DNA from: Neckera pumila
Taxonomy: Eukaryota; Streptophyta; Bryopsida; Hypnales; Neckeraceae
Assembly: GCA_963969595.1 (NCBI GenBank)
Contig: OZ018411.1
Span: 7,690,501 to 7,754,500, forward strand
Reading direction: 5' to 3'
Length of the DNA stretch: 64,000 nt
The position numbers and the translations under genes were made by a program. The notes beneath the pieces are model-generated. The model saw nothing but the letters and a program-made list of their open reading frames with translations. It searched no databases and was not told where the DNA came from. Below are positions 7,988 to 60,812 of the stretch, piece after piece (within the stretch, counting starts at the first letter, position 1; the number at the start of each line of letters is the position of its first letter).

Positions 7988-8018
7988 CATGAAGGCCATA
8001 TTCGTTAAAATGAGAGAA
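7988..8018 (+). repeat. 31-bp inverted repeat, left copy
   Basis: The segment beginning CATGAAGGCCATATTCGTTA is a perfect reverse complement of 27765-27795. It lies 164 bp inside the left CACTA-type end. The following 8019-8818 is AT-rich DNA in which I see no gene. Confidence 0.85.
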
Positions 8019-8818
8019 TATAGCGTCTCATATTAATTATGAGCCTAAATTTAGTATGAAAAAGGGTTCATTAATTTGAGATACTTCAATAAATTGAGAC
8101 TGTAATATGCCAAAGCAACTACAATTTTTTGTACAAAAAAAAGTTGCACCAATCCATGTCACTTTGCACACTACACATTTCATATCTTATATTTGTATAT
8201 TTTTCCATTATAAAGATCACGTACATTTTAGGGTCTCTTTGGATAAATTCGCTTTCCACCATTTGTAGGAAAGATATTAAAAGGATCTCAATGACATTTG
8301 AACAAAGATTGTTGATAATATACAATAATTAACAATTTTAAGATTGTTTGTACAATATTTTGCACAAGCACAGGAATCAGAATTCATAATTAGTCTTCAT
8401 AAATCACAGTCACCTTCAGAAAGAAACAAACATGAACAATAGAAATGAAATTAATAAGTAAAAAAAGGCACAATATAATATTACAAATAACAATACAAAT
8501 TTATTATATTATGAAAAATGTAGAATATACAATATAGTAATAACTAAAAAAGATTGAGCACCCCAAACTAAAGTTAACCCAAAGCAAAATCTATGTAAAT
8601 ATGACCTTCCAATCTAATTCATTTTAATTATTTTTTTATTTTTATTTTTGGCATAGTTATCATAAAGAAATCACCTAGCAACTTATAACACTTCTCCCAA
8701 ATTTTTTTTTGTTCTAAATTTTTCTCTTTTTACATTTATTCTTTAATTGGTTATTTAAAAACTAAACTACAAACTCCTAAAATGGCATCCTATGCCCAAA
8801 ACCTATTCATCCCTGCAC

Positions 8819-11657
8819 CTAAGAAGGATTGCTTCCTTCAGCAATGGCATTGGCGTCCACGGACTCTTTGATGATGCAGATTTGCGTTTTCGGGATTTTG
8901 ATGCGAGGGTCTACAGTAGCCGCCTTCACACGGGGCTTCCGAGCCGTCATTAGGGTATCCGTATGATTCCAGCTTGTGGAGACGTTCTTGTCTTCACACC
9001 ATAAATTCCCTTGTTTTGTGTCCCATCCAAGATATGTATTGTCATCAATGTGCTCAAATGAAGCAGGCGTCCAGTACTGCAAGTGAATGTAATTGACATG
9101 CCCTGGGTCTGGACTAGGGTTTGTTAATGCCCTTGCAAGCCAAAAAGGACGAAGGTCACCATCGGCAGGACGTACTGCAACAAAGTAATCGGCATATACA
9201 TCACGGGCTACACGAAATGAAGAATGAGGACGGTCACGCCTTTTCCCAACAAAAGGTGCATCCTCTGCAAACTCTTCACGCATATTGCCATCATCTTGGT
9301 ATTGGTCTTCTTCTTCTCTTGCGACTATTGAATTTGGCCAATATATCACGACCCACAAGTGGTTCTTGCAAAGCATTTCTCACACCTTCCCAGTACTTCA
9401 TCACTGTCGCATTTCTCCTCCGGAATTCCCCAGACAGGTCTTGATTAGCCATTGCACCCCACAAAGCAATATACCCGTCTAATCCCTTACAAACCTCATT
9501 GAAGCAACGCATCGGCTGTGGTGCAAAAGATTTAGGACTACCCTTTGGCACTTTAGGTCTCCCATCAGATGTCTCCTTCCATAGGCGGATCCCTCCACCT
9601 TCTTTAGGCAACCAGTCAACGTCCGTACAAAGAATTTTGTACTGCATCAAGGGCCATCCATTCGAATCTTTGTAGAACTTGAATTGCTGCGCTTGTGAAT
9701 GGCCTTGTAGTGCATCATCGCCAGTATGCAAGAATCCTTCAACATATTTTTTGAAATCAGGGACCTCTTCAATTAGATGCGGAATTACAGATTGTGTTTC
9801 GCAATCCATGAAGGACTTCATGAGCCTTGGAACTGTGAGGTAGTCATTTGTCTTCAACATGCTGCTCCAACGACCAAACAGAGCATCGATGTCCTCATGA
9901 GTGTGCCCAACAAGAAGGAAATTGATGTAGACTTCACGGAAAACGGCTCTGTATACAAGGAGAGAGCAAAATGCCAAAACCCATCGGTTTTTGTTGTCTC
10001 CAGCGGCATTATCGAGCTGTAGAATTAATGTTGGAGGAAGACATTGGGATTGCACCACTTCTTCAGAGCGAGGAGCCAGGGAGTCCACACAAATCTCCGA
10101 GCCTTCCAGCACAGCCTTTGACAATCGATGAATCATATCTTTGACAGGAGGAAACAATTGACGTGATGAAAATTTCGGTTCAGACTCAAGATCTCGCAAC
10201 AATTTTGCAATGGAGCCCACTGTATGGTTGGAGTCCGTAGGAAAGATGTCTAAGCCGTAGTGCGCATACCTCACGTCTCCATGACCGTGAGCAATCATGC
10301 TAGTGATAGCAATGGGCAACTTCATGAAAGAATCGGTGCCCTTGTTCTTGTGAGAATAATGGAGAGAAGCCGTTTTTGAATGATCCATCTTGTCGTGGAT
10401 TATAGTAAGAACCTTCTCCGGATACCTCTCAGACATCATACGATTTGCATAGTACAGCTCTCTGTGTGCCTCTTGACCAGCGAGATGGACCTTTAACTTT
10501 GTAGTCCAAACTTCTTGCGCACGGGAACGTGGAGTGCAAGCGGCCCTCAGTTGCTTGAGTTTATCACATTGTGCACATCGAGCGAAATTGTCACCACGTG
10601 CTTTTGGAGCGTACTCTGGAAAAGAAGCTCGTCGGATGTTGCTCAACCCGCTCGTTGAAATTTGTCGCAATTGAAATGTGGAATTGACGTTGTTTATCTC
10701 TGGCAAATGCTCCTTCCATTGAAATGATGAAGGCAGGACCATGGATGGAACCTTATCTCCGGACTGAAGAGTCCTTGATTTGTGAGGCATTGGGTCTGCT
10801 TCCCTCTCAACAATAAGTCGAAGTGTGGCCGTCGCTTGTAATGTATGAGTCCGCGGCTTTTTCAAGCCAAGATTACCATGGTGCTCTGGCTTCTTATCGA
10901 CTTTGGACATCGCCCTGTACCTATAGTATGTAGCCCGTGATATTCCATGAATTTTGTACCAAGCAGTGGGACAAACTTCATGTTGGGACAAAGTAATCAT
11001 ATCCTTCCCATCATCGCCGGGGTGGGTTTGCTTGTACGCGTCAAGGAAACGCGATTTTTGTAATTTCACCCCGCCGTCGACATGAACAAGGGAACGAAGC
11101 GCTTGAATCTGACCACGTGGGAATGGCTGCAAACAGTTCTTCGGGCAACAATCCATAGTTGACACCTGAGTGATCGCTTGCGAGGTGAGGAGGGTTTCTT
11201 TTTTCGGAGGGTTAGCCGGTTCTATCCTCTGTCGAGCACTTTCATAAGAACGAATTCCAGCCCGAACACGCCACGTAGATGCACTCATTGCCGACTTGTA
11301 CATAAATGTCTAATCATGGTCATACAAACTGACACCGTTGAGATACGTCCTTGAAATGGGCCAGGAATGCATTGACCACATCCATTGCGACGGAACATCA
11401 GCTTCACAGAGGGATTCCGCAATTTGAATTGCGACCCGGTCATCTCCAAGCGGTTTCCCATCCATATCAATGACGAGGCCTGCATCGACGCTGTGGCAAA
11501 TTCCTTTTGCCACTTCCATTCCAGCTTCATTTGTGAGTGTCACGGCCTTGGTATACCACAAAGCACGAGGGATGCCCTGGCATGGCGCAACACCCGGCGG
11601 CAAGGTTGGCACTGGGTCCGCAAACTCATTCGCGGAAATATTGTCCATTCTAAACAT
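8819..11657 (-). pseudogene. DUF7869-type protein, putative DDE transposase-like, one TAG and one frameshift
   Basis: On the minus strand, an ORF starting at 11657 (MFRMDNIS; alternative Met at 11648) runs to a TAG at 11312-11310. It then continues in the same frame from 11309 to 9291. The remaining ~165 residues (to 8819) are in another frame, so a 1-nt slip is inferred in the GAA-rich run near 9305-9325. Visible parts are a cysteine cluster (CCPKNC) and a helix-turn-like N-terminal block, then CxxC (CAQC). The core has acidic blocks HDKMDHSKT, LQLDNAAGDNKN and LVGHTHEDIDALFG, characteristic of DUF7869. Their D...D...D/E order suggests an RNase H-fold transposase, which is inference. The C-terminal part (DYFVAVRPADG...PFWLARAL) looks like a small beta-barrel reader. 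Its upstream region is studded with the palindromes at 11.73-12.72 kb. It could be a transposase of its own element or cargo. Confidence 0.75.
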
Positions 11658-11732
11658 GGCATCAAACTATTAGTAAGCTATTAAAATTATAATGAACACT
11701 GTCCATGAGATGCAAGGATTCAGTTCACAAGT

Positions 11733-12719
11733 TTATCTTCGACTCGAAGAAAATCCATTGAAATGATTTCTGCCGGTCTGACAAATTGATCGTACACTTG
11801 ACAATAATCCAATCAAATGAGTCATTACAGTCAAAAAATCCTATCATTGACATAAACATAATCTAGTGGAACGTCACCCTCCATCCTGACTAATTTATCT
11901 TCGACTCGAAGATAATCCATTCTATTCTGAACATATTATATGAGACTCAAAATATAAACTAATTGAACGAATCTCTCCGGTCCGGCTATTTTGTCATAGA
12001 CTCAAAGTTAAAGTATAATCTACAGTCGAGAGTATCCATCCTGGATTCAAAATAAAAACAATGGAATGACGAGAGTATCTTCGACTCAAAGATACTCCTG
12101 TGGAAGGACATCATACAGTCTAGAATTCATTATCGTTCGCTCGAAGATAATTCAGAGAATTGAAGGAGTCGTCACTGACAAACAAGTCAGATGGTGTGTT
12201 CCTATTTATCGTATCCTCGACTCGAAGATAATTTGACATTTCTATAATGCTAGGAGGAACGTCATCGAATAATCCCCATAATAGTAGTCGAGATATGTTT
12301 ATCTTCAAGTCGAAGATAAACTACATTGCAAGTCTGACGTTACTATCCTCGCGCCGAGGATAATCTCTGCCAGATCATGAAATACATACACTTTTGATAC
12401 CTAAAGCATTAATTCGATTCAGCGAGTCCAGATTATCTTCGAGTCGAAGATAATAATTTCACCGTTTCAGTCTATCATTATCCTCGAATCGAAGATAATC
12501 CCTTCTTCATGACTTTGAGAGTGAAGACAATCTCCGCTTCCGGTATTTACGGCGTACATTTCGGTAAGCTGATATCTGTTTAGAAACAAGCGTTGCAATC
12601 GAGAATTTCACCCTCTCAAAAATCAGCCCTGAAGACAATCTGATCGAAACCAGGGACGTGGGATGGCTGAATGCAAGTACTATCCTATGAAATCAGAGTA
12701 CTTTCAGTCGCAAGTACTC
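11733..12719. repeat. Cluster of ten dispersed ~20-bp palindromes upstream of the DUF7869 gene
   Basis: Self-complementary copies lie at about 11733-11753, 11894-11916, 12073-12097, 12129-12151, 12212-12230, 12297-12321, 12343-12363, 12431-12454 and 12477-12499, with a variant at 12696-12719. The core is TATCTTCGACTCGAAGATA, with variation at the centre and C/T changes in one arm. Two copies have different but still matching arms: GAGTATCTT/AAGATACTC at 12073 and GAGTACTT/AAGTACTC at 12696. A degenerate copy lies near 11991-12012. The sequence between copies is unique and AT-rich. Confidence 0.9.
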
Positions 12720-13448
12720 GGCATGAAACAGAGGAAAATGAACAACAAGCAAAACAATGACCTTATGCAAATGAGTGTGAAATTGAGGACCGCTGATGAT
12801 AGTGCTTTCGCCCAGAATAACTGAAATCGCGAAGTACAAACTGAAAGTATGCGCCGGAGCGATGCTTGCAATGGTGATGGAAGAAGAGAATGAAGGAGGA
12901 CTGCAGTGAGGAAATGTGGGGCTTGCGGAGAGAGAGAGACGGTGTTGGCATGGCGGGAAAATAACAGTGGGAATTTCTGGATTTCGAACCGTTGAACACT
13001 TTTCGCTCATCGGGGGGAAGAACCTCCTCAGTTTTGGGGTGTGCTGACATTGGAAACCTCCATAAAAAGGTAAGCGGCGACGTTGACAATGTGCTTTTTC
13101 TTTAATATTAGAGCACCGTCCATTCCGCCGCTTTTCTGTAGACAAGGTGGAATTTGCTTTACACAAATCGAGGAGATAAATAAGGGGAATATCACTTTAC
13201 AACAATTCCGGCTACCAAATTCTCGAACACACTGTCAGCTTCATTTATTGGCGATTTGGCTTCTTCTCTGATTTGACATTTGTCCAATTCATGAGTTGTT
13301 CGTCCCACCTGCCTTCGACCATTTTCGTTAACTTTTTTCTTTTCTAACATTGGATTGCAGTTTGTGTTTGTGACAAGTGGTAGCACAAATTTGTCATCAT
13401 GCCACTAATGTACATAGAATGCTATTTTTTTAATTCAATATATTATAT
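12720..13448. other. No gene supported; mixed-composition spacer
   Basis: Overlapping open frames on the minus strand (about 12693-13166) lack recognisable motifs and a consistent composition, and I do not call them. There is no other structure apart from moderate GC content up to about 13080, which could be a promoter or untranslated region of the divergent DUF7869 gene. Confidence 0.4.
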
Positions 13449-13720
13449 AGTGGGGGGAATCAACTTGTAGGGTCTAGGGTTTAGGGTTTGAAGGGATTTA
13501 GGGTTTAGGATTTAGGGTTTAGGGTTCAAGGTATTAGGTGTGGTATTCTACAATTCCTGATTTTACTAGAAGAAATAGATTCTAACTTAGTTGACTATTG
13601 CTTTTGGATTGTTCTTTTGTGGGGGGAATCAACTTATAGGGTCTAGGGTTTAGGGTTTGAAGGGTTTAGGGTTCAAGGTATTAGGTGTGGTATTCTACAA
13701 TTCTAGATTACACTAGAAGA
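13449..13720. repeat. Interstitial telomere-like (TTTAGGG) repeats in a 169-bp direct duplication
   Basis: Two direct copies start with GTGGGGGGAATCAACTT (about 13451 and 13620). Each contains degenerate runs of TTTAGGG (for example TCTAGGGTTTAGGGTTTGAA), followed by GGTATTAGGTGTGGTATTCT. TTTAGGG is the Arabidopsis-type plant telomere unit. The repeats are internal and degenerate and do not mark a chromosome end. Confidence 0.8.
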
Positions 13721-16700
13721 AAGAATTCATTCTAATTTTGTTGACTATTGCTTTTGGGTTGTTCTTTTGTATATTTGCTAACTCGTTCTATAAAATCATA
13801 TTGACATCTTCGAGATCTTGCAAGGTGCAAGGTTGCAATATTTCTTTTTAAAATCTTGTACAAAGGTGCCCATTTCTTTCTTGAATTTTCATATTCTCAA
13901 AGGCTCCTGGAATTGAATCTCACATACAAGAGATTTTGTAGAGACAATCACACTAAAAATTAATATAGAGCAATTGTAATAATAGTAGATTTAGGAATGT
14001 TATAAATTCACTGGGGATGTTATAAACTGAAACTCATATTTTATTGGTTTAAATTATTTTTCATTTGGCAAGCAAAAAGAGAGCTAAAATTTTTTTATAG
14101 TTTGATCACACACATGATCAAGCATTATAATCTTTCAATTCTTAAATGATATTGTCCTTTTATTTTGCCTATGTGATTTCTAACATATCCCCTTGGAAGT
14201 ACTATGGTTACACTTTAGAGAAATGTAATTCAACTTATCAAAATGTTGGCTGCTGGTTCAATTTATTGAAAAAATATGAGAGCCTCAAAATAAGCGTTGG
14301 CATCATTGATATAGAACTAGTTTTTTTACGTTGACCTTCAAAATACAAAGTTTAGGAGCCAAAAAATTTTAGGAGTGCTTGCTTGGTACTAAAAGATCCT
14401 ATGTAAAATAATAATAAGAATCTTACAATATAGAAATATATAAATGCATATGTTTATTTGAGAATTTTGATGCTATGCAAACTCTAGGTCTTCAATAATA
14501 TGTTTTTAGAACTTTTGTTTCTCATTGGGTCCAAGCTAAAACAAGTTCTTATTTTACCTACTCAATTATTATTATTCATGCACACTACAATATAAAGATA
14601 ACAAACTACAGTAAAACAAATTAAAGATAAACCATGCACAATAGTTTTTGGAATTTTATCTCAAATGTTTTATAAATTTAAATAACTGTTGAAAATGCTT
14701 AGAAGAAATTTTAAAACAAAACAAAACTCACAGACTTCAATGGATAAAGATACAATTCTAAGTTCTGGGTAAGAGTTTTCAGTGAACCCTAAACAACAGC
14801 TTTAACAAAAAATGATTTAATTCCTAATAAATGTGAGAAATTTCATCCAATTCTAGTTTCAATTATTATATATCTTACTAAAAGAGAAGTTTGTAAAATA
14901 AAAGGTAAAGTCTGTAAATTAATGACTATTCTATACATTGGTATGATCATTGATCATTACAAAGCTCTAACTTAATAATATATGCAATAAAGCATTTTAT
15001 GAAGTACCAAAATATCAACAATTTAGAAATGATTTCAAGTAGAATCCAAAGAGATTGAGTACCCTAATAATCCAAGAAATGAAATTAAAATACTGAATTG
15101 AGTTCATCCATCTAATACATAAAAGTAAAAATTTCTAAATCATTCCATTTTTACTAATATTAAGATGAAACTCATGAGAAAATTCACTAGAGAATATTTT
15201 TTGAATGTTTTCCATTGACCTTAATTTTTAATATGTCCAAAAAAAATAAAAAAATTGATTGTAGATTGTTTTTTATAAAATTTCCATCCTTAGAGTTGGC
15301 TTTCTTTTAGTTCAACAACTACATATTTCTTTATAAATTAGTTATTTTGGATCATTCTCCAGTTATGAGTAAATCGTTTTTCCATAAACATAAATTTGAA
15401 ATTATTTTAAAATCTGTAGTTTCATATTTTTTACATTTTTATATACTTCATAAGATTTTATTTAATTCATGATTAGAAAGTCGATTGCAAAAGTTTTGAG
15501 GGCGTTCAATTTGTAGAAAGTTAGTAGAAATGTCAATTATGGCATATTCTAAATATTGGAAACTGCATTACATGCCATATATAATGGTATTTTGAATTAA
15601 TTTGTAACCAATTTCATCCAAGTGTACGGCAGGACAAAAATGCAAATATTTATCTTCTGAATTTCATTCTAGAAAGGACAGGCTGGTCGAAGTTCTACAA
15701 TATAAGTGAATTTCATTTATAAAGTGTGGAAACCTTGAAATCATTTTAAATTTAATTAATGAGATTGATGACATTCATGACGCTTTTTGTTTGAGGATAG
15801 TTAAGGAATCTGTACTGTAAAATGAAATCAGACATCTCTCATTTCAAATAAACCAAAACCTCTATCATGAAACTTAATGTTTATTATTTTTGAAAAATTA
15901 CTAAAATACTAGGTGCAAATTGATTATTACAACGTTACAACCCTTGTAATTGGCATTTTTCAATTGCACGACTACACTCATGGCACCAAGGTAGAAATTA
16001 TAATAATTTTCCAATTTCGTGTAATTACACTTTTTTTTGATAGATTTTACAGTTCCAATAAATAATTAGAAGTAGCAAATGAAATGAACATTTGTAATTG
16101 ACAAGCGCCTACAATTTCTGCTGGGAATCTAATAAAATTGTAAATATATAGATCTAATTACAATATTTTGTATATTTTGATGCAATGAGTGCCTTACTAT
16201 AGTGCAAGTTTTTTCATTAGAAATTAAATAAACACGGTGCACCAATATGTGCGAAGCACAAATATGTGCTAGACACGTTTTAGGTTATTTTTTAATAAAC
16301 AACCAAGTTTAGTCCTTTTTTTGTATTTTGAAATTCATAAAAAATTCCCATTGGAATTCTATAACATTTTCACTCTTGGTTTGACCGTGAAAGGACCATG
16401 AATGCAAATATTTAACAATTAATTAACACAACCACAATCCAAGCTCAAAAAACTGCAATTTTTTCATTCATCAATAATGTTTTGAGATTCTTATTATAAT
16501 TCTTTAACACTTTTTCGATATGGATTACAAAAATTTGCTTTGCAAATATTCTGTAGTTCAAAAGATATTGGGAAAAACAATCTTGTAAAAAATCAAAAAT
16601 ATTCTATCTAGTATGAATTTGAGAATTAATTTTATTTTTTGGTTGTCTATTTTATAGAAAAATATTGATTAATTCATGTATTTGCTGACCAAACCATAAG

Positions 16701-16746
16701 TATGGATGTGATCTTTGTTTACAAGTTTTGTTTCAGTCATTTTTCA
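13721..16746. other. AT-rich intergenic stretch, nothing recognised
   Basis: About 3 kb of AT-rich, low-complexity sequence with frequent stops on both strands. I see no coding frame, RNA gene or clear repeat boundary apart from diffuse similarity to the piggyBac-type MITE family. Confidence 0.5.
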
Positions 16747-17542
16747 CCCCTAAAGGTTGGAGCTCATGATTAATTTTCATCAAAAATGCTCAAAATCTAC
16801 CATTTTTAGTACAAGTACATTTTAAAGCAAAAACACTTTTGAAAAAAGGTAACCTTTGGATCTTTGAGTAAGCTTGTTTAAAAAGATGTAGAAAAGATTT
16901 AAATTTTCCACCTTTTAGATTGCAAGTTAGACATTTTTATATAAACTGACAGAAATCCGGTTTTTGGCCTTATGGAAAATGAGATAGCTGCACTTTCTAA
17001 TGAAACATTTAAATGAAACAGTGTTCATTGTGGTAGGTACTCCTTGGATTTATTCTTGAAAGCAAGTATAGGACGTATTCTTGAAAAAATTCAAATCATT
17101 TTCAATTATATAACGTTTAGGGTAAAAATAGATTGTAGGAAGAAACAGAAAATATTTAAAAACATTCAATTGTCAATAATTTAATTATGGAAATGAACAA
17201 TGTTAATCCATCCGAACGATTGTAAATAATGATTAAAAAAACCCAATATACATCCTGTGCTTCTACTTTTTGCATCTAATACAAAAGCAATTTCAAATAT
17301 TTATTTTCTTTAGAAGAGATTTAAAAGAAAAAAAAAAGTTGCCTTCCAACCATAGAAAATGATATATCATCTAATAACTTTTTAACCATATATTAGTCAG
17401 AAGTTTTGAAAATTGTTGGCCTATCAAGGTACTCCTTAGGCACATATTGTTTGAAATTTTCAAATGATAAAAATAATTTTGTTTGCAATAAGCTACTCGA
17501 ATCTCCTATATTGCCAGAAAACAACGTTTGGTCCTTTAGGGG
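16747..17542. mobile_element. piggyBac-type MITE, nested
   Basis: Starts CCCCTAAAGGTTGG and ends GGTCCTTTAGGGG. The flanks are TTCA and TCAA, each one base from TTAA. The internal order matches the copy at 37969-38847 over most of its length, including a block near 17100-17170 with ATTTAATTATGGAA. Length is 796 bp and it is non-coding. A further family end (GGTCTTTTAGAGATTAA) lies at 17610-17626. Its position inside the candidate 21-kb element implies insertion after that unit formed. Confidence 0.65.
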
Positions 17543-17721
17543 TCAAAATAATATTGTAAGTAGCATTCTAAAATAGATCTTTACAATTTTGTAAATTTTG
17601 ACACTTCCTTGGTCTTTTAGAGATTAATTGCTATGGAATAATGTTCGTACATTAGTCTTCAAAAAAGGTAAACGAAGAGCTCAATGAGAATCAAAACAAA
17701 GGACATACAAACTACAATATT

Positions 17722-17795
17722 TCTCACAAAATAAACAAACAAACAAACAAAATAAAAAAACAAACAAAGAAAACAAACAAACAAACAAACAAAGA
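17722..17795. repeat. (CAAA)n microsatellite
   Basis: Runs of ACAAACAAACAAAC with minor interruptions. They precede a GC-richer segment that may be an upstream untranslated region. Confidence 0.9.
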
Positions 17796-19100
17796 AAAAC
17801 ACAATGCAGACTAGGAACCAAACCATAGGGTTGGGGGCTTACCAAACCAGGACTGGCGGCTCGGCGCAGGCTTGGGAAGTCATCTCGCAGCTGGAGAAGC
17901 AGCATTTGTCATTTTTCTCCTTCGTTTCCAGGAGCGCGCTGAAGATTTTGTTGTCGCTGTTGCTTCCCCGAGAAGCGCGTTTTCTTTGTCTCATTCCCAC
18001 CTTCTCTTCTCTTCAGTTGTTCTGTTCTTTTTGCGGAGGAGCAACAATATTCTTCTTCCTGATTTCTAGGTCGCGGTAGAGCATCACTGTTCGTCGTTGT
18101 TGATTTTGTGGCCTCACAGGCCGGCAGTTTGTCGCGGGAGAGCAGTTTGCTGCGGTGGAGCATCAGTGTTCTTCTTCAAAGTCGTTTTTGATTTTGTGGC
18201 CTCACCACTTCCTATTCAGCTTGCTCCTACGTATACTACTGTAAGCTTTTCCGCAACTTCGTCGTGTAATTTTAATTTGAAGCTCATCGTGAAGTTCGAT
18301 GCTCAAAATTTTACAAGCTTGGCTTGAAACACTTGAACTTTCGTTGAAGTTTGCTTTCAACTTGCATTGCTGAATTGCTGAATTGCTGCATTGCTGAATT
18401 GCTGAGTTGCGGGAAAGCTCATTTTCTGCTTTTCCTGCATTGTGTCTTCTGCTATTGGTTTTGACCTAATGTTGTATAGTAATCGCAATCCGCAGTCCCT
18501 GTGATGATTGTTGTGCGTAATGTGATTCGTTGCTTCTAGTACCTCCATGTTTGTGTAAGTTGGCTTCTGTTGCCTTGGAGACGATTGCTGGTTGTGTTAA
18601 TTTTTTGGAGCTGTTTTGGTGTGCAGTTTAGGTGTACCTTTAGACTGTTTTTTAAGTATGTAGGGTTCAGGGTTTGGCTTCCCAGTAGGGGTGCACCTGC
18701 TGGATTTTGGATTTGGGGTTTAGGACGCAATGGAATCTCTTCAATTTGTGATACTAATTTGCTGTGATTCATGTTTTTAGTGCTAGCCTTTTCTGATTTT
18801 CTAGGTAGACTAGTTTCCATTCACATGATGCTACATTCAGTGTATTTAACTTGTAGGAAGCATTCACAGTCACCAATGTCTGTTTGTTGTGTAGATTTTC
18901 ACAATTTGGATTAAAAAGCTTCAGCCACAGTGCACCTACTTGTCATACCAGGTTAGTAATTCTATTGAAATTGCATTGCTTTTCCGCCCCAAAATTCTGG
19001 AATTCACAACATGTGTGAAAGTTCACACTCTCTGTCCACGTGCTGAAGGTCAACATTAGGGTTTATGGTAGAATTGTTTAGCAATGTGCTCGCCCAGCCC
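17796..19100. promoter_or_regulatory. Possible 5' leader region of the ParB/methyltransferase gene, with short repeats
   Basis: GC-richer, with no long open frame. It contains a direct duplication (about 18073-18117 and 18153-18206; shared GATTTTGTGGCCTCAC) and a 9-bp tandem run of ATTGCTGAA type at about 18363-18412. A splice-donor-like CAG/GTTAGT occurs near 18950. I infer an untranslated leader or promoter because it lies upstream of the 19963 start on the same strand, but no direct signal proves it. Confidence 0.3.
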
Positions 19101-19578
19101 TCAGGTTTATCCTCGGGTCGAAGATAAATCTCAGGTTATGTCCCTTGCATTTCTACCACGGGCTCGCCCACCAGCTCCATTTATCCTCGGGTCGAAGATA
19201 AATGGAGCTGTATGGTGAGTGCATGGTGGAAATGCAAGGGACATAACCTGAGATTTATCTTCGACCCGAGGATAAACCTCAAGTTCTGTCTCCTTGCGTG
19301 GTGGCAATGTGCTCGCCCACCAGCTCCATTTATCTTCGAGCCGAGGACAAATGAAGCTACTGGGTGAGCGCATTGCCACCACGCAAGAAGACAGAACTTG
19401 AGGTTTATCCTCGGGTCGAAGATAAATCTCAGGTTATGTCCCTTGCATTTCCACCATGCGCTCACCATACAGCTCCATTTATCTTCGACCCGAGGATAAA
19501 TGGAGCTGGTGGGCGAGCCCATGGTAGAAATGCAAGGGACATAACCTGAGATTTATCTTCGACCCGAGGATAAACCTC
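19101..19578. repeat. ~480-bp super-palindrome made of seven palindromes at 74-75 bp spacing
   Basis: Seven copies of the short palindrome are centred at about 19117, 19191, 19265, 19340, 19415, 19489 and 19563, a constant pitch of 74-75 bp. They alternate between a plain ~23-bp type and a longer type whose arms extend to CAGCTCCA/TGGAGCTG (39 bp, for example 19172-19210). The whole block is itself a near-perfect inverted repeat around 19340. The arms share spacers such as CTCAGGTTATGTCCCTTGCA. It could extrude a large cruciform. It lies about 385 bp upstream of the ParB/methyltransferase start codon. The ORFs across it on both strands are by-products of the repeat. Confidence 0.95.
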
Positions 19579-19885
19579 AAGTTCTGTCTCCTTGCATGGA
19601 GCAACAGTCCAAATACAAGAGATCAAATAAATGATCAGAGAAAAACATTAAACAACACTCAAGCAAATCCCAATAAAAAAGAACCCAGCAACCAGAATAA
19701 CATGAATCACAACCGCCACGGCTGGGGCATCAAGAATCCTAAACAACTAAAACCATATAAATCTAAGAATCCAAACCATCATCGATGCGAAGATAACTTA
19801 GATGACCCCAAAAACGACCGCGTCAGTCAAAACAGTCGTCATACACATACACTCTTAACCAACTTAGAATGCAGATCCCCTATCC

Positions 19886-19908
19886 ATTATCCTCGAGTCG
19901 AAGATAGA
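19886..19908. repeat. Single palindrome copy upstream of the ATG
   Basis: ATTATCCTCGAGTCGAAGAT copy. It lies in a frame open from 19702 and continuous with the gene's ORF, where it reads HYPRVED. A degenerate relative lies near 19777-19798. Confidence 0.8.
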
Positions 19909-21439
19909 CATCAATGTACAAAGACTAATGATCCACATGACCCGCTGCAGGAAAGAAGCATAATGGCAGACGGTTCAGACTACAACTACTCGTCAACACT
20001 TCCATTCCTGGAGCCGTTCAACAAATGGATCAAGGACGAACCGTTCATCGTCCACTACAAAGGAATCTACGGAAAGCTATGGCAATTCAAGTCGGTGGTG
20101 GAAGCCTGGACGTTTGGTGTGAATCCATCCAAGGAGTACATATACCTGCGGCACCGCGTGAAGGGAACCGAGCAGTTCTTGAACTGGAACCTCAATGAGA
20201 AGATCACCCTAATCGAAAACCACCAAACAAAGTATACTGTTCTCACACTGCACGCGCTCCACGATAATGGTGAAGAAATTAAACACACTCACTCGATCGT
20301 CATGCACGAGGAGGACGAGTGTGGTCAGTTCGACATGGAAGCCCTTCTACTCAAACTCAACGCCATCAGTAAGGAAGACATAGCGCAAGACATATGCACG
20401 GCGTTTGGTCCGTGGGGGAAACATGACGCCGTCATAACGTCTCGGACCCTGAACTTAATTTTCCGAGAGCTTCTGAAGCAAGCACAACGATGGTCCCGTA
20501 TTCGGCCGGGAACGATTGAACCCTTATCGGGGTCAGGCGCACGTGGAAGGTCGGGGAGCCAGCGCGGCGGTCGAGGAGGAACCCGTGGTGGCAGCCAGGG
20601 AGGAAGTAGAGGGACCAGTCAAGGCGCAAGCAGAGGCAGCGGGAGAGGAAGCGCGAGATCTGAACCTCAGAAGAGGAAGTCCGCGGAACCTGAAGCAGGG
20701 GAAACAAGCGGCAAGCGTCGGAAGAAAGCAGCAGAACAGCGACCCACAGTTGCAGGGAGTTCCGGATCTGCTCTCACCAACGTTGCACCCACACCAAAGG
20801 GAGAGCTTGTAAAAATCCCTGACTACGAAATCGCGGCGAAGTATCAGAAGAACTTCAAGGAGAAACACGCCAAATGCTTCCTGTTCGACGAGCAAGTATT
20901 CCAAGTCAATATCAAGCAGTGCTTCCTGCCCCGTCCGAAGTACGTCATCAGGAAGCTGGAGGCAACGGTGGTGGATGACAAGCGGAAAGAGCTGATAGCC
21001 ATGCCCGACATGAGGGAGCGGCAGACGATATGCTTGACACCCATGGACGAAACCAGGAAACTCCTGAAGGAGCGACCTAAAGACTGGAATGCCATCAAAG
21101 CTGGGAACTTTTTCATCATCAACGGCCAGCACAGCATCACTGCTGCCAAAATGCTGCAAGATGGAGGCGTAGTACAGTTAAGAAAGGTCGAGTTGCAGAC
21201 TTGGAGTGCGAGAATCGTCTGGAGCAGAGATCCAGCCCAGCTGACCGAGATATCACGGTGGCACAACGCAGCAAACCACATCGTCCACAGCCAGCCGACA
21301 TGGGGAAACCAGATCTCAGCGTGCAGAGAAATCTGGATATCATACAGGAGGCCATCATATGTTATGGGCGAGGCTGCGATCCGTAATAACAGGGCTAAAT
21401 TTGCCGAAGATGTGTACAAGGTGAGACTGTGACCACATG

Positions 21440-21575
21440 ATCATCCTCGGATCGAGGATAATTTGTTTACATCTCATTTGCTCGTAGTTATTGCCTAGAA
21501 TGCTGTGTCTTCAATGCCAGGATCGATTACCCTGATGATGAACCCCACCTCATTATCCTCGGCTCGAAGATAAAC
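21440..21575. repeat. Two palindromes in intron 1 of the ParB/methyltransferase gene
   Basis: Copies at 21440-21463 (ATCCTCGGATCGAGGATAAT) and 21551-21575 (TATCCTCGGCTCGAAGATAA). Intron 1 is 21421-21614 (donor GTGAGA; acceptor placed at 21613-21614 by phase). The second copy is also open in the downstream exon's frame (IILGSKIN), so a longer exon 2 cannot be excluded. Confidence 0.8.
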
Positions 21576-22990
21576 GTAACATTGCATCAATATGCCCTTT
21601 CTAACGATGTTGAGTACAATTGCCGGTGGATGCAGAAATTCATCGATGCTGTCATAATCCGCTTCCAGAGCATCAACCCAGAAAAGGACGGCAGTTAGGT
21701 GAAGAAATCCTTGGACGTCAACAACGAAGTCCAAATAATAACCTTGGCGGACGGCGTGTACCGTATGTGGGACGAGTTCATCACGAGTCATATGGCCGGA
21801 GAGCTCCTCGATCCCGTCACGATGGAACCGCACAAGAAGTCCGATACATTCAAGCCGAGGAGCTTCACCCTGAAGCAGGAGTTCTTCAAGCACCTGGGGC
21901 ATTTCACAGATAAAGACCTCAAGGAATACGTCGTTCATTTACTTGGGCGCACACCCGGGCGAGAGTTGTCATGGCCGAAACTTACCGTCCACAAGGTTCC
22001 TCACTTGAAGGTGGACTGTTCAAGCGGGCAAGACTGGGTGGAGCGCAGGAAGCGCAAGAAGGTCATCCTAGATGAGCTCATGGTTAGTGACAAGAACTTA
22101 AAGTGCAAGGACAAGCACGACAATGTCATCGACAATGTTTGGAGGGCTTGGAAGCGCAAGAACCTCTTCACCTTCGCGTCGTGGGATTTCCTTCTCAACG
22201 CCCCACCGAACGGCTTCTTCACAAGACGGCTCACAAATTAGGGGAAGCTGAAGAGGGCAAAAGACTACAAAGAGAAGCCGTTTCCTACAGTCTTCCCCAT
22301 GTTTGAGCGCTTCATGAAGCTCAAGAAGCGCGTGGAGAAGCCGGATGGACAGGTCTTCATTCGGGGACACGTATTCTACCCTCAGGGATTCTGCACGAGC
22401 TCGACCTGGGTAATCCACAGAGGAGCGCTTCCCCTTGCGGTAATAGACTTTCGCCAGGTTCCGAGGCCTGCTCCCGGATCCGGGGACCCCGCACCGGTTC
22501 CAATTCTCCTCAACTTCCTGCATGATCACCTCAGGCCGAGCATGGGCACTCCGGACGTGTGGATGTGGGTACTTGGGAATGACTTCAACGAAGAGGCAGC
22601 CATTTCCTTCGCAAGGGAGAAAATGAAATCCTTCGCCATGAAACGTTCGACGTACGTTCCATGCAAGGCCGAGCGTCTGGACGGCCTAAGCAATCGTCAG
22701 ATAGTGCCTCCGTTTACCCTCCTCTTCCTCTTCAAGAGGGGAGACGACGGTGCGCCTAAAGGTGTGGACAGCATGAGGAGGGAGTACGCAACGTCGGACA
22801 ATTCGTACTACCGGGATTTTGCAAAGCACATGGAGGCCAAGCTGAGGATGCACAAGAGCGAACTCAGGATGGAGTTCTACATAGACATACTCCAGAGTTT
22901 CGTAGTGCGAGGGGAGAACGTCTTGGGCATTTACACGGGGTCCAAGTTCATGATCGCGGCAAAGGTAGAACTCTTCGAGAGATCGCCCAC

Positions 22991-23184
22991 CTTATCTTCG
23001 AGTCGAAGCTAAACAATGCAGTGAAGTCATCTGCAGATTATACGTAGTGGATCCCTTGTTTATCCTCGACTCGAAGATAAACTACCTGACTGAAATTAGT
23101 GGGATTGTATAGAATACACTGCGTTACGTCATTAGAGATAGTGGGCCGACTGTCGCTGGTCCCTTATCTTCGGGTCGATGATAA
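22991..23184. repeat. Three palindromes in intron 2 of the ParB/methyltransferase gene
   Basis: Copies at 22991-23014, 23058-23082 and 23162-23184, all in intron 2 (22965-23250, donor GTAGAA, acceptor GGCAG). The middle copy has extended arms GTTTATC/GATAAAC. Three copies in 286 bp is the densest intronic placement. Confidence 0.85.
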
Positions 23185-24235
23185 TGTCTTCTTTAACTTG
23201 GTGTTCGTCAAATGAGCAGAATTTTCTAACTCTTTACATTTGCGTGGCAGTTGTATGGCCTCACTTGCTACGCAATCCAAGGGAGACAGGAAACAGAATC
23301 CTACCGCAAGGTGGTTGCGTATCATGGCGAGAGGACGGACATAAACGACTTTCTTCACGACAACCCGCCGTACCTCGCAAATTATGTGCGGCCACGACTT
23401 CTTGGGACCCCTGAAATGAATTCTGACTCCACGCCTTCAAGAGAAGGCACAGAGCATGAGGAAGTACATGAAGAAGCGAGGGAAGAGGCCGTTCGGGAAG
23501 ACGTTGGGCAGCAAGGAACTAACGAACTCGGTATTAACGAGTTCGGAACAAACGATGATATTCTCGGGGTCGGGGAAATGGAAGTCAGGGCGGAGAGCTT
23601 CCAAGTGCAAAACCGGGAGCCGGAGGACGTAACCGTGGAACTTCACGAGCCTGATGCGGAGGCAAGGAAGAAGGATAAGGGGAAAGAGCCAGAATATGAA
23701 GTCATCGATTTAGAGGACGACGACATGGATACCTACTCCGACATGGAGACTTTTGACTATGGTGGGCCGGAAGTGGATCAGGGTGGACCATCCGGGGGGG
23801 ACAACTCCGCGGAGGCTTCGGGGGAGAAGACTGGGACCGAGACGGACCCCGAGAAGTCGGCCACTGAGACTGAAGCTGGCGGAAGTGTCTCCTTGGCGCT
23901 GGGGCCCGTGAAGAAGGAGAACAGGGAGTTCTGGGCACAGCGGGACTTGAATAAAATTAAGAAGGCGGAGGAAGAGAGGATTGAGAGAGAACGGGTGAAG
24001 AAGGTGGAGGAGGACAATAAAAGGCTGGAGAGAGAACGTATGGAGCAGGAAGAAGAGAACAGGAGGCTCGCAAGAGAACGGGAGGAGTAGGCAAAAGAAA
24101 TTGAAGAGCTCAGGCATAAGCTCGCAGCCCAATCGCAAGGCCAGTCATTGTCTCAGCAGGGAGGCAGTGATGTCCATGTTGTGGGCGAGTCCTCCCAGGC
24201 CTCCGTCGAGCAATCCAGGAAGGACACCTCCGAGG

Positions 24236-24466
24236 ATTGTCTTCGACACGAAGATAATCCTGTTCTTCTTCCTCTTCCTGCCCAATGTGCGAATGAGCCC
24301 CAAGTCCTCCAGACGCAAGAAGCAGAAACTAGCAATCCTTTAGAAGCGATTGTAACATCCGTCCTGCCCCTAGTGATTGAGCCTGCTACTGCGCTTGAGA
24401 TGCCCCACCCCGAAACGGCTCCAGAAGGATCCCCTGTTGTTGAAGTTTATCCTCGAGGCGAGGATA
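24236..24466. repeat. Two palindromes inside exon 3
   Basis: Copies at 24236-24258 (translated DCLRHEDNP) and 24446-24466 (VYPRGEDIS). They lie in the acidic, low-complexity C-terminal tail, where an in-frame insertion of 7-8 residues is easily tolerated. Confidence 0.75.
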
Positions 24467-24720
24467 TCTCAAAGCAGTCTCCTACCTTGGAGTTCCAACA
24501 ACCATTGATCCCAGAGACGCAGGAGGAAAATGTCCCTGTCGAACCCAGTGCCTCTTCTGAGACGTCGGCACTTCCACGAGGAGCATGGGAAATGGAGAAC
24601 CCTGGCGACGACGACGACGACGAGACTCTCAGTTACGGGGTGTATCTTAATGAGGGCGAGGACATGGAGACGGATCAGGTACAGCCTTCTCCATCTTCAG
24701 ACCCTTACGATTATTCATGA

Positions 24721-25210
24721 GTATGTGAACTGCCTTGTGATGGATGTTTTGTGGGCATTCCATCTAATTGTCATTCACAAAGTCGTAGGCACTTATGTCC
24801 GTTCATTCTGCCTTTCAGGGGGGAGTGAACAGTCAGTGATTGTGGGCGTCTACGAACTGCCCACTTGTGACATCTTGTAGTAGCATAGTGTACAGATAGG
24901 AACGGAGGGTAGTTGGCACTTGTGCAAAATCCGCTAGTGATCAGCGAACGCTAAAAACGCTTGTATCATATATTATTTTGAAATAAATATGAATGACACA
25001 TTTTCAACTGAATCGTGTCTAATGAATTGACTTTGTCCATGCTTGTGACCAGCCCGAAAGAATGAAAAGTGTGCTCCGTCCGAAAGCTCTCAAACAATCT
25101 CTTAACGGAGGGGTTCTGCAATCGCTTAGTGGAAATCTCTGCTTGTCGCCGTTTTATGGCTCTCATGATTCTGTGTTTCAACAGGTAACCTCATCTCTCT
25201 TGTGTTATGC
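24721..25210. other. Spacer between the ParB/methyltransferase and phosphatase genes
   Basis: No coding frame of note. AATAAA (near 24983) could serve as a polyadenylation signal for the upstream gene. An acceptor-like GCATCAG directly precedes the coding part of the next gene near 25220, so that gene may have an upstream exon. Confidence 0.35.
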
Positions 25211-26092
25211 ATGCATCAGGTAGAACAAGGGGGGCGCGCGGAGAGAGTGCCGCGGAGAGTGTCCTCAGTAGTGGTTAAGCCGCCACAGAAGTGGTTGAAC
25301 ATTGTGTTCGACCTGAACGGCGTGCTATGCAAGTGCATAAATAAGTCGCAGTATTCGGGCAAAATAAAATACGAAGTCCACAATAATCAGTTTAGCGACA
25401 GGCACCCCACCATGGTGGGCACCAAGGCCGTCTTTGTTCGTCTGGGCTTGAGGGAATTCCTAGATGAGGTCTCCAGCATCGCTAGTCGCGTCGTAGTTTG
25501 GAGCTCCATGTTGAAGAAGAGCGTGGAGCCCATCGTGGGATTTTTGTTCCAAAACTGTTCTAAATCTCCCTTTGACATCCTAGAACAGGACAAGTGCAGG
25601 ATGGTAGAGACCTCGAAAAAGAAGTTCCTTAACGACGCTTGGAGTCCCTTCAAGCCGTTGTTCCTCAAAGTGCTCGATGATCACTTGTTCGTAGATCCCG
25701 GTGATCCAACGGCTTTTAATAAAGAGAACCCCATTCTAATTGACGACTCCCCCTTAAAGAGTGTCCTCAATGAGAACGGAAACGCCATATTTCTAGAGAG
25801 CTGGAATCATTACGTGCGGAAAGACCAAGCACTGATGGGAGTGCTCATGCCATGGCTGACGCAACTCCACGAGGACTGTCCAACGGGGCGCTTGCGGGAG
25901 TATGTAGACTCGTACCGGATTGGGGAGAGCCCCACGACGGAAACCTCGTACAGAGTTGACCTTCTCTTGAGTGGGTTGAAGGAATCCGCCGCGTATTTAG
26001 GATCGCGTTATGTCCTACCGGGGATGAATTTAGTGATAGAGCCCGAGGCCGAGAAGAATGTCGAGGAAAGGACCTTCGCCATGTCAACCTAG
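25211..26092 (+). CDS. FCP1/NIF-type HAD phosphatase-like protein
   Basis: A 293-residue frame from ATG 25211 to TAG 26090-26092. It contains the FCP1-homology signature. Motif I is VFDLNGVLC at residue ~34, where the second Asp of DxDx(T/V) is Asn, as often in plant NIF-like homologues. Motif II is VVWSSMLKKSVEPI. A downstream Lys is in FLKVLDDH, and motif IV is LIDDSPLKSVL followed by NAIFLESWN. The family dephosphorylates phosphoserine in proteins such as the RNA polymerase II tail. With Asn in motif I the catalytic cycle may be impaired, so a binding role is possible. No internal stop or frameshift is seen, unlike its neighbours. It lies 490 bp downstream of the ParB/methyltransferase gene on the same strand. 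The true N-terminus may come from an upstream exon. Confidence 0.75.
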   Translation: MHQVEQGGRAERVPRRVSSVVVKPPQKWLNIVFDLNGVLCKCINKSQYSGKIKYEVHNNQFSDRHPTMVGTKAVFVRLGLREFLDEVSSIASRVVVWSSMLKKSVEPIVGFLFQNCSKSPFDILEQDKCRMVETSKKKFLNDAWSPFKPLFLKVLDDHLFVDPGDPTAFNKENPILIDDSPLKSVLNENGNAIFLESWNHYVRKDQALMGVLMPWLTQLHEDCPTGRLREYVDSYRIGESPTTETSYRVDLLLSGLKESAAYLGSRYVLPGMNLVIEPEAEKNVEERTFAMST

Positions 26093-26263
26093 ACTCTAGT
26101 AGGCAGTGTACATTGTGTGAATTGGTATTTTTTGTAATATTTCATTCTTATGTATAATTAAAGTTTTCATATTTCATTTCATTATGTAGTCCTACTGTCT
26201 GTGGTGTTTTATTTTGTCTTCTTGCACTGCTGTTATTTGTCTTTTGTTGCGATCATGACTTCC

Positions 26264-26287
26264 ATTATCTTTGGGCCGAAGATAAAT
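26264..26287. repeat. Palindrome copy
   Basis: ATTATCTTTGGGCCGAAGAT copy just upstream of the next ORF. Its TAA closes that ORF's frame, so translation or an exon must begin after it. Confidence 0.7.
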
Positions 26288-27266
26288 GTGTGGACCTGTT
26301 ACGATACCTCTGTGGATTCAGTTTGGAGGGCCCCTTCAGCACTCGTTCCATTACCAACAGCCTATGACAAGGAGCCTCTTGTCCGAATCGGAAGCGTCGC
26401 TCTTGAGGAGGTCTGGCTCAGAAGGGGGAAGCTTCTTGGCCTCATCGTATTCGAAGCCTGCTGTCTTTGGCTCTGCAACGGATGCTGCCTCCGCGGCCAT
26501 AGACTTCTCGAAGGGAAATGTAGAAGAAGGTGCCGTGGACAGCCCGCCAAGTCGGGGACCGCCCAGGACCCCAATTTGCTCGCCATCGCCGATGAAGTGG
26601 AAAGACTTGGCACCAAGTCGACTCCGTTCGTAGTCGCCCACTCCCCGAACCCCGAGTCACCCGCACCAAAAACTGTACGAGGGTGACAAATCACTTGTCC
26701 ACCTCGATGTTGGAGTCTTGAAACCGCCCAAGGTAGGAGGTGACTTGCTCCTGAAGAGCTACCCAGAAGCAGATTCAAGCAGTGGGGATCGGAAAAGGAA
26801 GCCTCTAGCCGATGATTGGACTGAGGTTCGGAGTCCGCAACGACTAGGCATCATCGACTCCCAGTCCCCTAAACCTAGCGGAGGCAGTCCGTTGCCTTCC
26901 ACTATATCTATTCTACACAAACCAGTCCTTGTGAAGCATCAGCGTTTGAACGTCTCGCGTTCGGCTGGATTTGTAGATCCACATGTAAACATTGTCCATA
27001 GATCGCTACCAAAACCGCCTCCTCGAACTTCTGCAACTCTTTCCAGTGAAGAAATTTATTCTCGGATCGAACGCAAGCGACGGAGAGAAGTGAAGGACGT
27101 ACTGAAGCTCGGGGGATTCAGCTCCTTCCGAAACACATCTGAGCATGTTAAGCCAACTCGGCGCGAGGATATTCTAAGAGGATATGCCAAACTGAAAGTG
27201 TTGGAGGCAGAGAAAGAGGCGAAGGAGGCCTCGAGGACCAGTTCTTCCACTAAGAACGATGGTTAG
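26286..27266 (+). pseudogene. Unknown Ser/Pro/Lys-rich protein with one in-frame TAG
   Basis: A single frame is open from 26286 to 27266 except for TAG at 26631-26633. On both sides the sequence looks coding (KDLAPSRLRS before it, SPTPRTPSHPHQ after it). The first Met (26286) may not be the start, and an acceptor-like ATTCAG at about 26321 is an alternative exon start. The protein is low-complexity (Ser, Pro, basic), with a charged probable helix at the C-terminus (KLKVLEAEKEAKEA). A degenerate palindrome (27053-27073) is read in frame as EEIYSRIERKR. I do not recognise the family. It sits on the same strand as the ParB/methyltransferase and phosphatase genes and shares the palindromes, which suggests a common unit. 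Confidence 0.45.
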
Positions 27267-27947
27267 TGTAGTGGTTCTCATTCACAGAGGAATTGCCTTT
27301 GCAAAACAATCATTACTATTAATAGAATAGTCATTGCCGTACATAAAACGACCATCTTTTGGGAAGGTAGAGTGCCCCGTGTGTGTATATTTTCCTCTAC
27401 AATTTTACACTCGGTCGTTTAGAATAAACTACATTTCATCTTCTATAGTCAAAGTATTCATATAGGCACATGAGATAAATTTCATTCATAGGTACATGGG
27501 TTTTTTAAGGAAGTTAATGTCCTTCAATGTAAAGTGACCCACTTTTATAATGCACCATTCTTTTTGGCTTAATCATTATGGAATATTTGGTCATCATTGG
27601 CTTACAAATCATGCTATAATTACATAATGTAAAATGCTTCCACCTTGCTTTGTCCACTGCATGTGTAATCTATTTATTGTATTGTTCCAGTGTGCCTATA
27701 TTTATTTTTGCCTTCAACAACTTATCTTTGAAACAAAGAGCCTTAAGGTCTCAATTCAACCAGTTTCTCTCATTTTAACGAATATGGCCTTCATGTTTTA
27801 TTTTACATGAACTCAAACACATTGATGTTTTTCTAAACATTTGAAAACACATAGCACTGCCACATGAGCAAAAAATGCATTTTGACTAATACTAAATCTA
27901 TAAAATTATTGTGGGATATGATAAAATGCTGACCAAATGTAAAAAAT
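27267..27947. other. AT-rich stretch with no gene
   Basis: Nothing coding is seen. It contains the right copy of the 31-bp inverted repeat. Confidence 0.5.
27765..27795 (-). repeat. 31-bp inverted repeat, right copy
   Basis: Perfect reverse complement of 7988-8018, 19.7 kb apart. It lies 1068 bp inside the right CACTA-type end. Confidence 0.85.
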
Positions 27948-59100: not shown

Positions 59101-59812
59101 GGACAAACATTTGAGTACCATCAAAACGTGGGGGAAGGTAATTGACTTCTTCAATTTTCAATCTATCGTAATCTAACTTCTTGAGGATGTTTTTACTACC
59201 GGGCATAGAACCTAGTCTACGTAGACATTGAACAATGCAATTAAAAGATTTGGATGAAGAGGGTACTTGAGGATTTGAAGGTTCAGGGCAAAAGAGAGAC
59301 GGGGTGACAAATGTGGGAGTCTTGGACAAACAAATAGGATTCACAAGAGGAGTAGGGCGAGTGAGTGCATCTTCATCGGAGGAATCAGATAGATCAATGA
59401 TTAGCTGCACACCAGGCTCACTCTTAACTCTCACTAACGGAGGGGTGTTCAACGTGTAAGTAGACGATTGGAATGGGGTAAGGATTTCAGTCGTTACCCC
59501 CATTTGAGATTTAGTGAGCCCATAGACCCTGTACTTGCCAGCGCCCAACTCCCAGACCATTGATCCATTTTTGACAAGCCTAGAATTCTCACGCATGGTT
59601 ACGGAAAGCAAAGATGTAGCAGGATCAAAAATCTCACGTTCAACCCAAATGGTATTCACCTGAAAAGAGAATCTGATGCTAAGGTGAAGGGCGGAGACTG
59701 ATGCAAATCCATCTTCACCTATAGGAATGAGAATGGAGACTCCAAGGCCATGCGCACGGAGCTCAGCCATCTCAGCCATTGCAGAAACAATGGAAGATGA
59801 AGCCATTGACAA
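56127..59812 (-). pseudogene. MULE transposase with GCM/WRKY-like zinc region and SWIM finger; single in-frame TGA
   Basis: Exon 1 is 59812-57680 and exon 2 is 57584-56127, separated by a 95-bp intron (donor GTATGT, acceptor TACAG, phase 0). The ~1196-codon frame holds these parts. An acidic/low-complexity N-terminus is followed at residues ~270-400 by a Cys/His region like GCM-type fingers (CVGHLQCQNQNCDY, CIHIGTHRHPVKVG). Residues ~520-690 are the MULE DDE core (HVYDGTYQRI, GFMADSAQANW, CYFHW), continuing to NLAESIHNKW in exon 2. The SWIM finger CxC...CxH (CTCPAF, HCKHLYF) lies near residue 1130-1150. The only break is TGA at 57733-57731, 17 codons before the intron. Mutator-type transposases cut and paste DNA via terminal inverted repeats, but I could not locate such ends with certainty. 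Otherwise intact, so recently active or readable through the TGA. Confidence 0.85.
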
Positions 59813-60812
59813 AGAGAAGGAAAAGCTAAGCGTAGACTACAAAGGGCAATGCCATCAATAATCACAAGAAAGCAAATAGATAGAAGGAGAGTTTGATGAC
59901 CAACAATGAGAAAGAAATTAAAGGTTTGCAAAGAGAGGCAATACGGAAGAGCAACTCGGAGTTTAAGCATTTTGAATTATCTATGAATAATTGATCATTC
60001 ACTATTGATAGATCTCATAATAATTATGATTCTGACAAAGAATTAGAAGGAATTAGAAATATTATAAATGGCGCAGTCATTAATAAAGCCGTTGGCATCA
60101 TCTAAAGCAGGTAGCTTTAATAGTTAGGTAGAATTGATGAACACCAATTTCTTGAATTAGAGCGGAGGCACCAAATACATCATGAACTTTCTGTAATGAA
60201 AGACAATCTTGTCCTACAATTGGAATAGTTGCCATATTAATAGTGGAACAGAGTAATCAAGAGCTCGGTCAATCTAGAAGAAAATCTTGCAGACGCCAAT
60301 TGTTTTTTGGAGGACACCGTTTAATAGCCTAGTTTATAATTGGTTTAATATCTTCTTAATGGTGATGTTATAATGTACAGCTATTAGACACCGGAAAACC
60401 CTAAACCGCATGCAGTAGCATTATGTAGACAAAAAAAGTTTAGTGAGGGATCATCTTTTGTGAGAGGCGTTTGATGTCGTGAGAATGCAGGGGTGGTGTG
60501 CGGGCATTGTAGGGTTGGCAAGACGCACACATGAAGGAATCAAGCCACAATACAGTCTCTGCGATTGATCCAACGCGGAAGCGCAAGAAAAGAAGAGGCG
60601 GCACGACTTTTACCAACTCGAAGCAGAAGAGGCGAAACGAGTTGAAAAAGAAGGAGCTATTGAGCATAGAGGGACGAGGGTCACCTTCAGACTTACGCAA
60701 GCCAGTTGAGGAGGAAGTAGGTGGTGCTTGGAGAGCAAGGTGTATGATTCGGGTTCTTAACCTTGTGCCGATCCAGAAAGAAGTGAAGAGCAGAAGTTCA
60801 CCCTCACCAGCA
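59813..60812. other. Intergenic region between the MULE and the second ParB-like gene
   Basis: 59813-60430 is AT-rich and holds no gene. 60440-60812 is GC-richer and open in the frame of the next gene from 60531. It may be the leader, or an N-terminal extension, of that gene. Confidence 0.4.

Follow-up and report, generated by a model that had tools for sequence, protein, structure and literature searches.

Palindromes dispersed in the genome of the moss Neckera pumila are parts of a transposon family and candidate binding sites of an element-encoded protein

The short palindromes dispersed over some 15 kb of the analysed DNA of Neckera pumila are parts of a transposon family. The window, that is the whole stretch of 64,000 nucleotides that was analysed (contig OZ018411.1, positions 7,690,501 to 7,754,500), holds one complete copy of this transposon, here designated W, and the palindromes lie within it. 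The motif, 19 bp long and palindromic, contains two CpG sites. Its copies are candidate binding sites that would allow a dimeric DNA-binding protein made by the element to recognise its own family, a reading for which we consider the chances to be about even, judging from sequence comparisons.

In the window, 53 strand matches to TATCNTCGNNTCGANGATA with up to three mismatches were obtained, 52 of which represent both strands of 26 sites located between positions 11,734 and 26,284; the remaining one, at 10,136, is weak and present on one strand only. Shuffled sequence yielded 0.95 strand matches on average and 6 at most with the same threshold. The initial annotation had counted about 27 palindromes in this interval, which agrees with the present 26 sites against about one strand match expected by chance; the copy that it placed last, near 27,073, was absent from the present results, in which the last site is at 26,266-26,284. 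A looser symmetric site rule, which demanded some symmetry of each site, returned 27 sites within the element, compared with 3 in the 36.2 kb to its right and 2 in the 8 kb to its left, and this rule is to be regarded as loose because the whole window read backwards (uncomplemented) gives 11 sites in 64 kb. A count that made no use of the motif and took all perfect or nearly perfect 9-1-9 palindromes, with at least 8 of the 9 pairs formed, gave 16 in the element and 0-4 in five shuffles. The search of the genome (339.5 Mb in 18 contigs) gave 388 forward and 391 reverse exact matches, and none in either orientation for the reversed pattern. The palindromes had been described as confined to one 15-kb interval, which is correct inside the window and incorrect for the genome, where the motif is far above background frequency.

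The transposon copy in the window is bounded by the following features (strand given where one applies):

7992-27791: whole transposon copy, 19.8 kb, with aligned pieces in three more copies
7988-7991: left target site duplication CATG, 4 bp, read from the sequence
27792-27795: right target site duplication CATG, 4 bp, read from the sequence
7992-8016, plus strand: left terminal inverted repeat, 25 bp, perfect complement of 27767-27791
27767-27791, minus strand: right terminal inverted repeat, 25 bp

The terminal inverted repeat starts with AAGGCC. The three further copies A, B and C align to 7,992-27,791 at 97.1-98.2% identity, A without a break, B and C each in two pieces, which are separated by a short gap in B and by some 3.5 kb in C; in all three the similarity stops at 7,992 and 27,791 to within a few bases. 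Their target site duplications are TATA in B, ACAT in C and, with one mismatch, AGGA/AGAA in A. The left 300 bp were found at 97-100% identity at 26 places or more (40 of 91 candidates scored), and the 26 left ends are spread over ten contigs (C1-C5 and C7-C11). For the analysis of both ends, 10 of the 22 copies beyond W, A, B and C were sampled, for one of which the interval ran beyond a contig end, leaving nine usable; the right repeat lay about 19.8 kb from the left one in 8 of the nine, and an exact 4-bp duplication was present in 6. Since copies, inverted repeats and target duplications agree, the transposon family is genuine and young. An assembly or contaminant artefact, which the initial annotation had considered for this contig, is ruled out by the 26 left ends on ten contigs and by the duplications in most of the sampled copies. 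The transposon also contains a duplication, at 13464-13685, in which units resembling the plant telomere repeat TTTAGGG occur.

The copies carry a mutation signature of CG and CHG methylation, as expected of methylated, silenced copies: singleton C-to-T changes among the four copies were observed at 195/1421 CG, 123/1110 CHG and 78/4624 CHH positions. The palindromes were not protected from this CG decay (12/92 inside them vs 195/1421 overall), and they were not less variable than the remainder among the young copies (23/437 variable columns vs 642/15865), so that a stronger conservation of the palindromes among young copies was rejected. Unprotected palindromes are also what old silenced copies would show.

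The element carries four genes or open reading frames:

8819-11657, minus strand: gene 1, DUF7869 (PF25273) protein (Pfam E=1.8e-45), candidate DDE/D transposase, frame broken in the window copy
19963-24720, plus strand: gene 2, three exons in our own model, candidate binder; exons 1-2 with 36-47% amino acid identity in the relatives E and F
25169-26092, plus strand: gene 3, NIF/FCP1-type phosphatase-like protein (PF03031, E=1.2e-12), 45-47% identity in E and F
26634-27266, plus strand: ORF 4, weakly conserved in E (37% over 110 amino acids)

Genes 1 and 2 of the window copy contain four in-frame stops that are absent from the other three copies compared, and different stops are present in other copies. 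Gene 1, with relatives at 64-71% amino acid identity, contains the motifs HDKMD, LQLDNAxGDNKN and GHTHEDID by eye and would be the transposase.

In gene 2, the motifs NGQHS and ENVLGxYTGxKFMxAAK were recognised by eye, which we take to be reminiscent of ParB/DGQHR proteins and of methyltransferase motif I, respectively. Palindromic sites are typical targets of ParB and modification-type proteins, and gene 2 might accordingly modify or bind the palindromes in a ParB/parS-like or modification-enzyme-like manner, for example for the marking of self and non-self. We regard this as improbable: the gene 2 pieces gave no convincing family match in Pfam, NCBIfam or PHROGs, the best E value being 0.079 (PHROGs), and the weak matches, HetR_C (Pfam, E 0.14) and unnamed PHROGs (E 0.079 or higher), were judged unrelated, with none in NCBIfam; the phage search with gene 2 returned no match, a DPPY motif was not seen by eye, and the predicted structure of gene 2 was too weak. 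The palindromes had initially been associated with DUF7869 and "ParB/methyltransferase" genes. Both genes do share one element with the palindromes, and the ParB/methyltransferase label is unproven because gene 2 is without a convincing family match and the motifs were seen by eye only. Outside the element, an open reading frame at 63097-63675 (plus strand) has a ParB-like VWEGNHRLTAW by eye and no Pfam match at E<=1; it may belong to a second ParB-like protein family in the genome.

Sola transposons are described as having a 4-bp target duplication, inverted repeats and a DDD transposase, some being longer than 15 kb, and as occurring in the moss Physcomitrella (PMC10741241). The present element is likely Sola-like, as judged against the parts of this published description that were available, since the DUF7869 motifs LQLDNAxGDNKN and GHTHEDID, the 4-bp duplication and the size fit its outline. 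The duplication is exact in W, B, C and the relative F, has one mismatch in A, and was exact in the six further copies mentioned above and in 24 of 30 miniature elements (MITEs). The accessory genes and the palindromes are a difference, being absent from those parts of the Sola description.

Elsewhere in the window, a CACTA-type transposase fragment (Transposase_21/tnp2, PF02992, E=5.9e-42) is located at 55101-55499 on the plus strand, and two long open reading frames at 56127-59836 on the minus strand look like a Mutator-like transposase by eye (SWIM-like CxC...HC end) and gave no Pfam match at E<=1.

Within copy W, the palindromes are arranged in the following groups, none of which is assigned a strand:

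11734-12497: cluster 1, 9 sites upstream of gene 1 from the motif search, starting at 11734, 11896, 12076, 12131, 12212, 12300, 12344, 12434 and 12479; a tenth, weak site at 12016
19103-19599: nested inverted and tandem array of about 74-bp units with 7 palindromes (19108-19572) and 236-nt arms that are 96% complementary
19777-19906: two palindromes (19777 and 19888) upstream of gene 2
21442-21572: two palindromes in intron 1 of gene 2
22993-23183: three palindromes in intron 2 of gene 2
24238-24466: two palindromes (24238 and 24448) in coding exon 3 of gene 2, with E and F sites in the corresponding region
26266-26284: last palindrome, between gene 3 and ORF 4

The array at 19103-19599 is shorter in copy C, and the palindrome at 19888 ends 56 bp before the ATG of gene 2. 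In total, 9 sites lie upstream of gene 1, 9 upstream of gene 2, 2 in intron 1, 3 in intron 2, 2 in exon 3 and 1 past gene 3. The palindromes avoid coding DNA: according to our own gene model, 2 of 27 sites are coding and 25 non-coding, with 8,689 of the 19,800 bases being coding (Fisher P=5e-5). Sites upstream of a gene, in introns and in exons, as initially annotated, are thus all present, those in exons being these two. The introns of gene 2 contain more sites than expected in W (2 vs 0.21 in intron 1 and 3 vs 0.38 in intron 2) and in F (2 vs 0.24 and 2 vs 0.21), and in E the excess is restricted to intron 1 (3 vs 0.76), with one site vs 0.39 in intron 2 (P=0.33).

Three diverged relatives of the element carry palindromes as well. 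Relative D (C1:30.88 Mb) has a gene 1 with 71% amino acid identity; relative E (C1:41.47-41.48 Mb) shows 36-44% identity in exons 1-2 of gene 2 and 47% in gene 3; relative F (C1:45.76-45.78 Mb) is 17.8 kb long, is flanked by the duplication GTTT and has identities to W of 64% in gene 1, 38-47% in gene 2 and 45% in gene 3. One terminal repeat each was located in D and E. The distance from the start of a site to the gene 2 ATG is 75 bp in W, 94 bp in E and 62 bp in F, and in L053, a gene 2 relative, a palindrome lies about 67 bp before the start. Both introns and the exon 3 region of gene 2 contain sites in W, E and F alike, and E bears its palindromes in a 69-bp tandem array. The exon 3 region palindromes are at 24238-24466 in W, L019:328 in E and L021:3622 and 3802 in F; the W site at 24448 and the E site read YPR-x-ED, although W and E share only about 26% identity in this exon.

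For the comparison of non-coding DNA between families, alignments were scored against shuffles with and without masking of the palindromes in 10 comparisons. The alignment exceeded the shuffles in 4 of the 10, and this excess disappeared once the palindromes were masked, with z falling from 5.0 to 0.0 for W-F upstream of gene 1, from 5.4 to 0.9 for W-E in intron 2, from 2.9 to -0.2 for W-E upstream of gene 2 and from 2.3 to -0.6 for E-F in intron 1; in the other 6 there was no clear non-coding alignment signal even with the palindromes included. The sites therefore persist at corresponding gene positions while other non-coding DNA fails to align.

The motif occurs in different dialects. In F, position 5 is G in 24 of 38 half-sites vs 1 of 54 in W (P=2e-11), and in E, position 3 is C or G in 25 of 48 half-sites vs 2 of 54 in W (P=1e-8), these P values treating sites as independent though some are tandem duplicates, and the site rule having demanded some symmetry. 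The shifts in E and F are parallel, affecting both half-sites, and D has the dialect of W and none of its own. At the variable positions the two halves are unpaired in 11 of 27 W sites (position 5) and in 11 of 24 E sites (position 3). This independent variation fits a two-fold protein that reads each half separately and does not fit a hairpin, so that the initial suggestion of dimeric-protein binding sites gains indirect support from the independent half-sites and the parallel shifts, with the sites themselves remaining putative. Hairpins of RNA or DNA feeding small-RNA production or recombination would be compatible with the long complementary arms of the array at 19103-19599; as pairing is not kept at the variable positions, an RNA hairpin is ruled out as the conserved object, and we consider a role of this kind very improbable. 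Sites for a host transcription factor, captured to drive the element genes, would explain the clusters directly upstream of genes 1 and 2. They would not readily explain the palindromes in introns and coding exons, and a single factor would favour one motif, whereas E and F differ from W in both half-sites. Different two-sided dialects in one nucleus thus favour a co-evolving reader encoded by the element over a host factor, which is an unlikely explanation. Sites kept at corresponding places, with dialects of their own in E and F, likewise point to an element-encoded dimeric protein.

Solitary palindromes were mostly found in MITEs: of the 12 solitary places examined among the matches listed, 11 of them on contig 1 and the twelfth on contig 2, 10 lie in MITEs with terminal repeats, one (L053) adjoins the gene 2 relative, and one is a palindrome pair (L023, C1:4.349 Mb). 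In the latter, at L023:4957-5102, the two palindromes are 127 bp apart with similar flanks, and neither MITE ends nor a match to the element genes were found. The MITEs are about 255 bp long, have the same terminal repeats as the element and occur at no fewer than 74 different places (best 40 of 150 and best 40 of 219 candidates in two queries). Thirty MITEs were examined, ten from the solitary sites and 20 of the best 40 from the first MITE query. In all 30, one palindrome is located at offset 43 and a second one 70-72 bp from the other end, each with two mismatches at most in 29 of 30. A free-standing family resembling bacterial REP/RPE elements, as initially proposed, is rejected, since the sites are parts of transposons and, at 10 of the 12 solitary places examined, of MITEs. 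REP/RPE elements and parS resemble the present palindromes in being short and present in many copies, and differ in that the latter are embedded in plant transposons and MITEs.

Because of the MITEs, a role in transposition is the main rival to the proposed regulator: the transposase or an accessory protein would bind the palindromes to assemble an active complex. MITEs should retain whatever is required to mobilise them, and two palindromes close to the termini are present in each of the 30 examined. TnpA of En/Spm (CACTA) binds subterminal repeats and is thus an element protein reading repeated short sites; analogous binding may occur here, with the difference that the palindromes of the window copy are internal. 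In this copy the outermost palindromes lie 3.7 kb and 1.5 kb from the termini, none is present in the terminal parts of W and F where the MITEs have theirs, and the palindromes concentrate upstream of genes and in introns. A better candidate for transposase binding is provided by TGAGAC/GTCTCA boxes, whose offsets from the ends agree among W, F, E and the MITEs, even if individual boxes are missing from some of them. As W and F lack palindromes at the MITE positions, the palindromes form a class of sites apart from the terminal boxes, and the MITEs have both. Sites for transposition are therefore a less probable explanation, yet one to be taken seriously.

We infer that the palindromes are bound by a protein, that the element encodes it, that it acts as a dimer and that it counteracts silencing rather than plainly controlling transcription, with gene 2 as the first and gene 1 as the second candidate binder. 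In the proposed mechanism, the dimeric protein would bind the palindromes upstream of genes 1 and 2, in the introns of gene 2 and in the tandem arrays; occupancy of the sites would shield the element genes from closure by host cytosine methylation or regulate their transcription in another way; and MITEs with two sites next to their terminal repeats would share the benefit.

This would best be modelled as a self-targeting regulator most like VANC of VANDAL, residing on a Sola-like transposon, with anti-silencing as its presumed function. VANC proteins cause methylation loss, and their targets, located in introns and in non-coding DNA that is intergenic or terminal, occur as tandem repeats, differ between related transposons and have non-palindromic motifs in one orientation (PMC5735166). 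The likeness to VANDAL, a Mutator-like family of Arabidopsis, as portrayed there, consists in many copies of a short motif in one transposon family, placed in introns, upstream of genes and in tandem; in a motif that differs between related families, as E and F, and not D, differ from W; and in the 69-bp array of E and the 74-bp array of W, which match the tandem-repeat pattern. The present system differs in its 19-bp palindrome with two CpG sites, in the DUF7869 gene and the 4-bp duplication, in that none of the element ORFs scanned against Pfam matched DUF1985, the VANC family, and in that the motif extends to relatives and MITEs. The binder may be another kind of protein or one that escaped these scans.

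In the literature searched on DUF7869, Sola, ParB/methyltransferase transposons and palindromes, this arrangement was undescribed in the titles and abstract beginnings among the matches listed, and a mention of DUF7869 was not found. We tentatively suggest that the family may represent a second, independent plant origin of sequence-specific anti-silencing encoded by a transposon, on a Sola-like element with palindromic CpG sites, with a dimeric reader that perhaps stems from a prokaryotic ParB/methyltransferase fusion, and with dozens to perhaps hundreds of MITE hijackers that carry exactly two sites. If this is true, self-targeting recognition sites whose dialect drifts along with the transposon have more than one origin, and the success of MITEs may depend on carrying palindromes. 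The presence of several dialects in one genome makes the co-evolution of binder and site directly testable, and a protein able to locate a 19-bp palindrome and to change methylation would, if confirmed, be a useful sequence-specific tool.
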